DNA of 32,659 bases from Alphaproteobacteria bacterium (lineage in GTDB: Bacteria > Pseudomonadota > Alphaproteobacteria > Sphingomonadales > Sphingomonadaceae), in NCBI GenBank assembly GCA_005882415.1, contig VBAE01000085.1, forward strand, positions 1-32,659, written 5' to 3'. This document shows, piece by piece, positions 14,945 through 18,468 of this stretch (the first letter of the stretch is position 1; every line of letters starts with the position of its first letter). Below the pieces are notes generated by a model, which searched no databases, had not been told where the DNA came from, and was given only the letters and a program-made list of their open reading frames with translations. The position numbers were made by a program, and so were the translations under genes.

Positions 14945-15031
14945 GCCCAGATGGCGGAATTGGTAGACGCACCAGCTTCAGGTGCTGGCGCTCGCAAGGG
15001 CGTGGAGGTTCGAGTCCTCTTCTGGGCACCA
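14945..15031 (+). tRNA. tRNA-Leu (anticodon CAG), CCA encoded
   Basis: Acceptor stem gcccaga/tctgggc, D-loop ggtagac, anticodon arm ccagc-ttCAGgt-gctgg, variable arm, T-loop ggttcgagtcc, terminal acca. Confidence 0.95.
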
Positions 15032-15061: not shown

Positions 15062-15543
15062 TCAGCCTTGCGCCTCCGGACGATCGGTCCGGACTTGCCG
15101 GAGGGCGAAACCGCGGGCGGCCGCTTTCGCGACGAAGTCCGCCGTCGCGTCGCCGGTGCCGTGGGGGCGGCCTTCCCAGACGGCGATTGCGAGCGCTGCT
15201 CCGTCGCCGAGGGATTCGGCCTCTTCGACGATCCGGCCGTTCGCATGCCTATAGACGTCCTCCGCATCGGGATCGCCGCCCAGGGTGACGAGATCGCCCC
15301 GCCCCTCGGCGAGGCGGATCGAGCGGTCGAACGGGCGCATTCGAGCGCGATCAGGTCGGCCCCCGCGGCCGCCGAGCAGACGAGGCACTTCACGCCTTCC
15401 GACACGAGCAGGTCGCGCAAGCCTTGCCGAACCTGCCCGACGGCGGCGGTCGGGAAGCGCGCCTCGCCGCCGCCGGCGGGGTCCGGGCGGCGTCCGGCCA
15501 GCGCTGCGATGCACCCGTCGGCGCGGACGGCAGGTCGGTTCAT
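15062..15543 (-). pseudogene. SLOG (SMF/DprA-LOG Rossmannoid)-like protein, disrupted by frameshift and internal loss
   Basis: Frame 1 from ATG 15543: MNRPAVRADGCIAALAGRRPDPAGGGEARFPTAAVGQVRQGLRDLLVSEGVKCLVCSAAAGADLIALECA. It continues in another frame: RPFDRSIRLAEGRGDLVTLGGDPDAEDVYRHANGRIVEEAESLGDGAALAIAVWEGRPHGTGDATADFVAKAAARGFALRQV; crossover ~15310-15345. Confidence 0.65.
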
Positions 15544-15647
15544 CGAGGCGCTCCGGCACAAGAGCCCTGCTCCAGGGCTTCGAGCCTTGCATCTAGCGAT
15601 TGCAGCGGGCCCCGTACAACGGCATGCTTCGAGGGCAGGAGGGCGAC

Positions 15648-16574
15648 ATGCCGCACGTAACCTTCATCCATGGCATCGGCAACAAGCCGGAGCGCGAGCA
15701 GCTCCGCCAAATCTGGCTTAGAAGCCTCGCCGCCGCCGGCGGTCTCGATCTCGGCGCCGAAGGGGTGACGAGCGCGATGGTCTACTGGGCCGACGTGCTC
15801 CACGCCGAGCCCGATCCCAATGTGGCGGCTTACGAAGCGGCGGCGCTCGATGAACATGGCGTCGAAGCCGACCCCGCAGCGGATGTTCCGACTGCCGACA
15901 GCGCCGACGAAGCCCTCTTCCTCGCCGGGATTGCGGCGAAGCTGGGCGGCACCCTCGCCGCGGCCGAGCTTGCGGCAGAACCCCAGGCGCGGGGAACCGA
16001 TCTCGCGCTCGAGCGCATTCCGCTGCCCTGGCCGATCAAGAAGCTGTTCCTCAAGAATTTTCTGAGGGACGTTCACGATTATCTGTTCAATGCCGATTCC
16101 AGCCCCCGGCCCGGCGAACATTACAAGGTTCGGGACGAGATTCGGTCGCGTTTCGTCAGGGCGGTGAAGGACGCCCCCCAAGACGATGTCCATGTCGTGG
16201 TCAGCCACAGCATGGGCACCGTGATCGCCTATGACTGCCTGAAGAACGTAGCGGATTGCCCGCGCGTCGACGCCCTCGTCACGATCGGGAGTCCCCTCGG
16301 CCTGGACGAGGTGCAGGACAAGCTCGACCCGGGCTATTCGCGCCGGGACGGCTATCCCGACTTCCGTTCCTCGACGCCCTGGGTGAATTTATTCGATCGC
16401 CTCGATCCGGTCTGCGGCTTCGACCCGATCCTCGCCAACGATTTCGAGCGCGGCGGCGTGAAGGCGATCGATGACGTTCAGGTCGTGAATCCCGGGTCAT
16501 GGCGCCATTCGGCCGTCAAATATCTGGCCCAGGCGGAGCTTCGGACCAGGCTCGCCGCCGCGCTCGGCTTATGA
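15648..16574 (+). CDS. Alpha/beta-hydrolase (lipase/esterase-like)
   Basis: 308 aa; MPHVTFIHGIGNKP N-terminal strand/oxyanion loop, nucleophile elbow VVVSHSMGTVIAYD, acid WVNLFDRLDPVCGFD, His NPGSWRHSAVKYL; AGGAGG before ATG. Confidence 0.82.
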   Translation: MPHVTFIHGIGNKPEREQLRQIWLRSLAAAGGLDLGAEGVTSAMVYWADVLHAEPDPNVAAYEAAALDEHGVEADPAADVPTADSADEALFLAGIAAKLGGTLAAAELAAEPQARGTDLALERIPLPWPIKKLFLKNFLRDVHDYLFNADSSPRPGEHYKVRDEIRSRFVRAVKDAPQDDVHVVVSHSMGTVIAYDCLKNVADCPRVDALVTIGSPLGLDEVQDKLDPGYSRRDGYPDFRSSTPWVNLFDRLDPVCGFDPILANDFERGGVKAIDDVQVVNPGSWRHSAVKYLAQAELRTRLAAALGL

Positions 16575-18160
16575 GCCCGGCTGAAGCGGCCGCGGAGCGG
16601 CTCGGCCTGCGCAGGAGGGCGGCCGGGTTGATCGCGACGCTGGCCGGTGCGCGGGACGGGCAAGCGGTCGCCGATCTCGCCGCGGAGCTTCGGCAGGAAC
16701 GGCAGTTCGACCTGCTCGAGGAGCTTGCGGAGCGGGCGCGGACGCTCGGAGACGATCGACCGCGAATCTCGCTCTATCTTGCCCAGGCCCTCATCGACCG
16801 CGACCGCCCGCGCCTCGGCGCCGACGTGCTCGCGGGGCTCCTTCCGACCCTGGAAGCGGGGGATCCGCTTCGCGCGGAGGCGCTTGGGCTCGCCGGCCGC
16901 TCGTGGAAGGACGTGATGCTGGCTTTGCCCGAGGCGGCTGAGGCGCTGAGGCAGCATGCGCTTTCGAGCTCGGCGCGATCCTACCGCGCCGCCTTCGAGG
17001 AGAGCGGGCGGTGCAACAGCTGGGCCGGAGTCAATCTGCTGGCGCTGGCGGTCTATGCCGATCGCAATGCCCTGCCGCTCGGCGAGCCGGTGGAGATTGA
17101 CGGGCTCGCGGCGGAATTGTGCAATGTGCTCGACTCGGTCGCCCCGGAACAGCGCGACGGCTGGCACCATGCGACGGCCGCCGAGGTGGCGGTAGCGCGC
17201 CGGGACCTGGCCGATGCCGAGCGCCACATCCGCCTCTATCTGGAGAGCCCGGCGACGACCGCCTTCGCTTTGGCCGGGACGCTTCGGCAATTCACCAGGC
17301 TTTGGTGCCTGCGTTCCGAAGGCGTGCGCGGACGATCGATCGTGGAGGCCCTGGAAGCGGCTACTCTCGAGCGGGAGGGCGGCCATTTCGACATCCCTGC
17401 CGCAGCGGTTCGGGAGCGGCCGGAAGAGCCGGCGCGCGCGGCGACCCTCCAGGCGATATTGGGAAACACGGGTGAGGTGACCTACTCCTGGATGCAGATG
17501 GGGCTTGCAAGGGCGAAGTCGGTGTGCGCGGTGGTGCACTCGACCGGCAGGGTCGGTACGGGCTTCGTCGTTGCGGGAGCGGCGCTCGACCCGCGTCTCG
17601 ACGGCGAGAAGTTCGTGCTGACCAACCGCCACGTCGTCAGCGAGGATCCCGGCGAAGACGCATTCTCCCCGGACGACTGTCACCTCGTCTTCGAAGCGGT
17701 CGATCCCGGCCGGAAGGTCGCGCTTGACGGGATCGTCTGGTCCTCGCCCGTCGGCGAGCTGGACGCGACGCTGCTAAGGGTGCGGTGGGAGGATTTGGAG
17801 GCCGATCCGCTGCCGATCGCGCCGCGCCTGCCGATCGTCGATGCCGGCCAGCGCGTCTACGTCATCGGTCACCCGCGCGGCGCCGAGCTCTCCTTCTCCC
17901 TGCAGGACAATGAGCTGCTGGAGCATGAGGGCCCGACTGCCGGCAAGCCGCCCAACCCGAAGGTCTGCAAGCTCCACTACAGGGCGCCGACGGAGCATGG
18001 CAGCTCAGGCAGCCCCGTATTCAACCGGTCGGAATGGAAGGTGATCGCGCTCCACCACGCCGGCGGAGAAATGGCGCGCCTGAACGGCAACAGCGGCAGC
18101 TGGCCCGCCAACGAAGGAATCTGGATCCAGTCCATCGCCAAGGCGATTCAGGAGCGCTGA
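16571..18160 (+). CDS. Serine protease: N-terminal TRAFs-binding (DUF4071)/TPR-like helical domain + C-terminal trypsin-like peptidase
   Basis: ATGA overlap with the hydrolase; LAGRSWKDVML..SARSYRAAFEESGRCNSWAGVNLLALAVYADR is TRAFs-binding-like; triad LTNRHVV (H), GELDATLLRV (D), HGSSGSPVF (S). Confidence 0.8.
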   Translation: MSPAEAAAERLGLRRRAAGLIATLAGARDGQAVADLAAELRQERQFDLLEELAERARTLGDDRPRISLYLAQALIDRDRPRLGADVLAGLLPTLEAGDPLRAEALGLAGRSWKDVMLALPEAAEALRQHALSSSARSYRAAFEESGRCNSWAGVNLLALAVYADRNALPLGEPVEIDGLAAELCNVLDSVAPEQRDGWHHATAAEVAVARRDLADAERHIRLYLESPATTAFALAGTLRQFTRLWCLRSEGVRGRSIVEALEAATLEREGGHFDIPAAAVRERPEEPARAATLQAILGNTGEVTYSWMQMGLARAKSVCAVVHSTGRVGTGFVVAGAALDPRLDGEKFVLTNRHVVSEDPGEDAFSPDDCHLVFEAVDPGRKVALDGIVWSSPVGELDATLLRVRWEDLEADPLPIAPRLPIVDAGQRVYVIGHPRGAELSFSLQDNELLEHEGPTAGKPPNPKVCKLHYRAPTEHGSSGSPVFNRSEWKVIALHHAGGEMARLNGNSGSWPANEGIWIQSIAKAIQER

Positions 18161-18468
18161 TGGGGCCAGGCATGGTGGGCGAGGAGAGGATGGTTCGAAT
18201 GGCATATCTGGCAGGCGCCTTCTTCCTGTTCGCGCTCGGCGCTCGCGCCGGGCGCTGGTTCGCGGGCGCCGCGGTCCTCCTCGCTCTCGCCGCCGCGGCC
18301 CGGGCGCTGATGGGCTATCCGGCGCTGACGGTGACGCTCTGCGCCGTCGCGGGCGGCGCCGCATTCCTCCTTCCCCGCCAGCGTACGCCCGTGAGCGCGG
18401 CTGCCCTGATGCTTGGGACCGTGCTGGCGGCTTATGCGGTGTTCGGCCCCGCCGACGGGCTGCTCTAG
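18160..18468 (+). CDS. Small membrane protein (~102 aa, about four predicted TM helices)
   Basis: TGATG overlap with the protease stop; hydrophobic stretches AYLAGAFFLFALGARAG, WFAGAAVLLALAAAARALM, ALTVTLCAVAGGAAFLL, AAALMLGTVLAAYAVFG. Confidence 0.65.
   Translation: MGPGMVGEERMVRMAYLAGAFFLFALGARAGRWFAGAAVLLALAAAARALMGYPALTVTLCAVAGGAAFLLPRQRTPVSAAALMLGTVLAAYAVFGPADGLL

Follow-up and report, generated by a model that had tools for sequence, protein, structure and literature searches.

The window, that is, the whole stretch of 32,659 nucleotides that was analysed (contig C35 of a 3.3 Mb assembly in 296 contigs), contains two overlapping genes coding for an alpha/beta-hydrolase and for a trypsin-like protease with an N-terminal TPR-S region. 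Judging from the sequences, and with slightly more confidence than doubt, we read this pair as a mobile two-gene conflict module, in which TPR-S would sense and the protease would switch the hydrolase. Such a module would probably be anti-phage or anti-plasmid. The pair recurs in the same order in other genomes, where it appears among defence genes, and relatives of the hydrolase are coupled to several unrelated kinds of protease.

Organization of the locus

Three open reading frames of the plus strand lie in tandem downstream of a tRNA-Leu(CAG) gene and encode the hydrolase, the protease and a small hydrophobic protein (Table 1). The tight coupling of these genes pointed out in the initial annotation is seen at both junctions, with an ATGA at 16571-16574 between the hydrolase and the protease, and a TGATG at 18158-18162 between the protease and the 102-aa protein. 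In the divergent intergenic region upstream of the hydrolase, no match to a sigma-70-type promoter was found, and the promoter and terminator scans gave no result.

Table 1. Features of the hydrolase–protease locus, with positions in the window
Feature	Position	Strand	Remarks
tRNA-Leu(CAG)	14945-15031	+	conserved genus landmark beside epimerase gene; outside the module
SLOG-like C-terminal remnant	15065..15331	-	frame differs from the N part of the same gene
SLOG-like N-terminal remnant	15334..15543	-	~46% identity to the N-terminal part of Lichenicola WP_171837716.1
Divergent intergenic region	15544..15647	.	104 bp, between SLOG remnant and hydrolase
Alpha/beta-hydrolase	15648..16574	+	308 aa; ATG start; AGGAGG-like ribosome site upstream
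TPR-S/trypsin-like protease	16571..18160	+	529 aa; Pfam domains, catalytic motifs
Small hydrophobic protein	18160..18468	+	102 aa, four hydrophobic stretches; start overlaps protease stop

The tRNA-Leu gene, which had also been indicated as a neighbour, is present. It adjoins the epimerase gene in 20 of the 22 other loci of the genus, and the sequence that follows the tRNA varies among them; given this fixed position, the presence of the tRNA does not by itself point to an insertion. It was considered as an attachment site and rejected, as it is a fixed landmark of the genus and its 3' end is not repeated within the window.

Searches with the 102-aa protein, which is predicted to have four transmembrane segments, gave no relative, and its membership of the module is doubtful. 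The combination of four genes proposed initially, with a role for this protein at the membrane, is unsupported.

Catalytic and TPR-S features of the two proteins

The predicted catalytic residues of the hydrolase are S188 (SHSMG), D250 or D253 (FDRLDPV) and H287 (WRH). They are conserved in all near relatives, in agreement with the triad candidates given for this protein beforehand. Its alpha/beta-hydrolase matches in Pfam are all sub-threshold, and no signal peptide is evident. A stretch at about residues 53-118 is variable, with a mean conservation of 0.65 vs. 0.79 elsewhere, and its length is very different across the wider hydrolase family; the AlphaFold model, obtained from two sequences, has a pLDDT of 35, too poor to judge a blocking of the active site. 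Viral contigs and phage records contained no relatives. A class-wide search of 386 alphaproteobacterial genomes gave no other close hydrolase, which indicates that the pair is rare.

In the protease, a TPR-S match spans residues 46-159, with helices extending to about residue 269, and a trypsin-like domain with H354, D398 and S479 (GSSGSP) occupies residues 329-494. That this domain is a trypsin-like protease, as read initially from its motifs, is confirmed by a match over the full length of Trypsin_2 (PF13365; 1.2e-21, 78.4 bits, profile positions 1-144 of 144) and by the invariance of the three residues in all near relatives. PADLOC models match the protein weakly, through the same domain. 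The N-terminus had been described as TRAFs-binding, which stands in part: the TRAFs-binding-like TPR-S family is matched (PF20308; 2.4e-9, 38.1 bits vs. a cut-off of 27.6, profile positions 2-101 of 102), whereas MAP3K_TRAF_bd (PF13281) stays below its cut-off (20.3 vs. 24.1 bits). The best fold matches of an AlphaFold model (two sequences, mean pLDDT 50) are TPR proteins, with ASK1 first, which lends some support to a TPR-like fold of this half.

The defining paper for TPR-S is said to be that of Burroughs and Aravind, from 2020. The window protein resembles the members of this family in that its N-terminal half lies above the family cut-off, and differs in that its effector half is a trypsin-like protease. 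Several other arrangements of TPR-S were observed. Among the ORFs checked around an 858-aa TPR-S and trypsin protein of genome G408 (L131:4231-6807, minus strand), none encodes a hydrolase of the family, so that the sensor-protease can also occur without this partner. At L106:1384-3252 and L120:997-3201 (both plus strand), TPR-S is fused to adenylate/guanylate cyclase domains, and at L107:67-2451 (minus strand) a TPR-S protein carries a RyR domain at its N-terminus. RyR-type phage proteins are reported to act on ADP-ribose signals (PMC13232231), and taken together with the RyR-TPR-S protein this would fit a place of TPR-S in NAD-derived signalling.

The pair in other genomes

The initial annotation had suggested a search for the hydrolase and the protease as neighbours elsewhere, and the same adjacency is indeed found in Rhizobium, Sinorhizobium and Agrobacterium. 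In Rhizobium sp. FKY42, a full-length relative of the protease has a hydrolase of 58% identity directly upstream, and plasmid searches gave the same gene order in Agrobacterium fabrum, A. tumefaciens, Rhizobium etli and Sinorhizobium. Besides the window, the two genes are adjacent at loci L009, L010, L011, L012 and L014/L015, mostly plasmid-borne. Identity to the window proteins is 22-29% for the TPR half, 49-53% for the trypsin domain and 52-60% for the hydrolase; the TPR half is the fastest to diverge and the hydrolase the slowest, in keeping with a sensor that changes and an output that stays the same. The TPR-S profile was scanned against three pair proteins and reached those of the window and of Sinorhizobium K101; that of Agrobacterium fabrum was not reached at 1e-3.

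In Sinorhizobium sp. C101 (L015:9949-11612), the protease is annotated as two CDS, the TPR part and the protease part, unlike in the near-identical plasmid pK101b, where it is undivided; L015 would represent a split or a frameshift.

The neighbours of the pair include pieces of Dsr1 (L009), a type IIG restriction gene and a patatin (L011), and TIR and TIR-nSTAND proteins (L014), together with recombinases. These neighbourhoods support the view that the pair keeps the company of defence genes, and on this basis the conflict-system context proposed initially is supported. A plasmid-type selfish or exclusion module, serving addiction or competition and not phage defence, would have the same biochemistry with another target. 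It would suit the location of most relatives on conjugative or large plasmids, several of them adjoining parB-like genes, yet the window copy is found on a chromosomal-looking contig with housekeeping genes around it, other copies adjoin Dsr1 or restriction genes, and no antitoxin-like partner was seen. We consider this explanation unlikely and retain a module directed against phages or plasmids as the preferred reading.

Protease partners of the hydrolase family

A plasmid search with the hydrolase gave 35 records, from which 23 loci were opened, 7 near-duplicate and 5 unlisted records being left out. Counting this hydrolase family alone, a protease is fused to or near the hydrolase in all 23 opened loci, many of which are related, so that the independent events are fewer than 23. 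The TPR-S/trypsin type of pair is found in five of them (L014 and L015 being near-identical). At L013, the hydrolase belongs to an operon with an Endonuclease_NS-trypsin protein, a CHAT protein and an S8 peptidase; L016 and L017 encode single chains of 689 aa, trypsin first and hydrolase second; and at L092 a trypsin gene is directly upstream of the hydrolase. Caspase-type neighbours are present at 14 of the 23 loci, eight of them above the Pfam cut-off (L082, L086-L090, L095, L098), one below it (L091), and five recognised by His/Cys motifs only (L085, L093, L094, L096, L097). On a chromosome, an alpha/beta-hydrolase and a Peptidase_S8 domain (S8 subtilase) form one chain (L075:5795-8314, minus strand), and for two distant, weaker chromosomal relatives (L076, L077) no protease partner could be recognised. 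With three peptidase superfamilies as partners, this cannot be one inherited arrangement. That the hydrolase is coupled to proteases of unrelated kinds argues for protease control as the element that stays the same.

In two Agrobacterium plasmids (L010, L012), the hydrolase and a trypsin-type protease lie between parB-like and large helicase genes, and in two others (L098, L088) the same slot holds a caspase and a hydrolase of about 30% identity. The flanking parB-like and helicase genes are 81-98% identical between the two arrangements. Since both occupy one slot, the trypsin-type and caspase-type pairs are probably alternatives for one function. More tentatively, and at somewhat less than even confidence, the hydrolase family may be an exchangeable killer enzyme, checked and switched on by proteases of the trypsin, caspase and subtilisin superfamilies, with the TPR-S/trypsin version as its stand-alone two-gene form. 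By analogy, such an enzyme would take its place beside bacterial gasdermins and gated nucleases as their lipase-type counterpart, a comparison that we regard as possible, if short of probable.

Control could also run in the opposite direction, the hydrolase editing a lipid, an acyl group or an ester and thereby licensing the protease, which would be the true effector and cut cell or phage proteins. The sequence is compatible with either direction, as also with an action of the hydrolase on a third molecule, and in Actinobacteria the hydrolase and the protease are found in one chain; in the tested nuclease–protease pairs, however, the protease is the activator (PMC12799240), and licensing by the hydrolase seems distinctly improbable. 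The reading in which the protease switches the hydrolase is therefore kept.

The SLOG-like remnant

An intact divergent SLOG-like gene had been placed at 15062-15592 in the initial annotation. This ORF (176 aa) is a composite, the first half of which is an off-frame reading. Its codon-position GC is.84/.76/.65 in that half, compared with.80/.60/.89 and.81/.54/.81 in the two true frames, which favours the two remnant frames over the reading in the N-terminal half of the ORF; the true start of the gene is near 15543. Both frames match a single gene on a plasmid of Lichenicola cladoniae (N frame 4163-3975, C frame 3863-3591), and a reverse search with the Lichenicola protein recovers the two window pieces. 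The N and C parts are separated by 2 bases in the window vs. 117 in the 194-aa Lichenicola homologue, the only full-length relative, which amounts to a net loss of 115 bp (base count from alignment coordinates) with a change of frame and leaves no single open frame. Judged by this loss, the assembled sequence carries a broken SLOG-like gene, although the break may stem from an error of assembly. The name SLOG rests on motifs; Pfam contained no match for the remnants or for the full-length relative, and the PDB none for the relative.

On the Lichenicola cladoniae plasmid (NZ_CP053711.1, L072:5551-7909), the full-length relative is part of a cluster formed by a ThsB-type TIR gene, the SLOG-like gene and a TIR+TPR-S gene, which adjoins a type IIL restriction gene and recombinases. 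From its composition, the cluster is possibly a TIR/SLOG/TPR-S signalling system, and with the relative placed between the two TIR genes the link between SLOG and TPR-S drawn initially was not baseless. Nucleotide signalling, in which a nucleotide made or sensed by the SLOG protein is read by the TPR-S protease, would draw on this placement and on the fusions of TPR-S to RyR and cyclase domains, which suggest that the SLOG–TPR-S linkage is not random, yet it is the least probable of the explanations considered here, as the 115-bp loss disrupts the reading frame of the window copy, the pair was not seen next to a SLOG gene at L009-L012, L014 or L015, and the window genome has a single TIR_2 match, on another contig (C95, L130:5703-9268, minus strand), adjoining a STAND-like ORF. 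SLOG is left out of the proposed system, and the two-gene module remains the preferred reading.

Relation to described systems

Protease-coupled conflict systems and a caspase/hydrolase pairing are already known (PMC7159879). The vWA-MoxR-VMAP conflict systems, described by comparative genomics, combine a caspase with an alpha/beta-hydrolase (Kaur et al. 2020, PMC7159879), and the window hydrolase gene likewise adjoins a peptidase gene; unlike in that pairing, the protease of the window combines a trypsin-like domain with TPR-S. None of the ORFs inspected beside the module is a vWA, MoxR or VMAP gene, and the proteins of the module have no VMAP match in Pfam. The two families meet at L085, where a relative of the window hydrolase is directly upstream of a VMAP-M2 gene with caspase-like motifs.

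In Hachiman, AVAST and Canu, nuclease proenzymes are activated proteolytically by trypsin-like proteases (Tuck et al. 2025, PMC12799240). The window pair resembles them in having an effector enzyme encoded beside a trypsin- or caspase-type protease, with a presumed proenzyme logic, but its effector is an alpha/beta-hydrolase instead of an MBL-fold nuclease, and its activation would follow by analogy. The NucA-trypsin conflict systems, which are trypsin-centred and mostly alphaproteobacterial (Kaur et al. 2020, system 3; PMC7159879), are approached through L013, where a close relative of the hydrolase sits in such an operon, whereas the window module has no nuclease. Similarly, the full-length SLOG-like relative sits among TIR and TIR-TPR-S genes, as in Thoeris-type TIR systems with SLOG, whereas the window module has no TIR gene and its SLOG gene is broken.

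The best reading of these likenesses is, by analogy, that the pair is a variation on the caspase/hydrolase pairing already in the literature, parallel to the nuclease–protease pairs. In the portions of the literature compared, no description was met of the stand-alone TPR-S/trypsin and hydrolase form, of the trypsin and subtilisin fusions or of the slot swap; an earlier description of the pair is possible, for example in the main TPR-S paper, which lies outside that literature.

Proposed mechanism and implications

In the mechanism that we propose, the fast-diverging TPR-S half would sense an infection signal, either a NAD-derived nucleotide or an invader protein, and sensing would release or turn on the trypsin-like domain. 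The protease would in turn switch on the hydrolase, a cytosolic lipase- or esterase-like enzyme, a direction of control that we infer as well. The protease may do so by cutting the variable stretch at about residues 53-118, a putative cap, or by acting within a complex with the hydrolase; the variability of this segment in both sequence and length makes it a natural place for a cleavable cap. The hydrolase could then damage a cell component, presumably of the kind of a membrane lipid, and the spread of the invader would be stopped.

If this is true, hydrolases would join the short list of immune effectors under protease control in bacteria, which comprises pores and nucleases, and the TPR-S sensor family would be linked to a testable output. 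Small two-gene systems of this type would then allow direct tests of protease-controlled hydrolysis.
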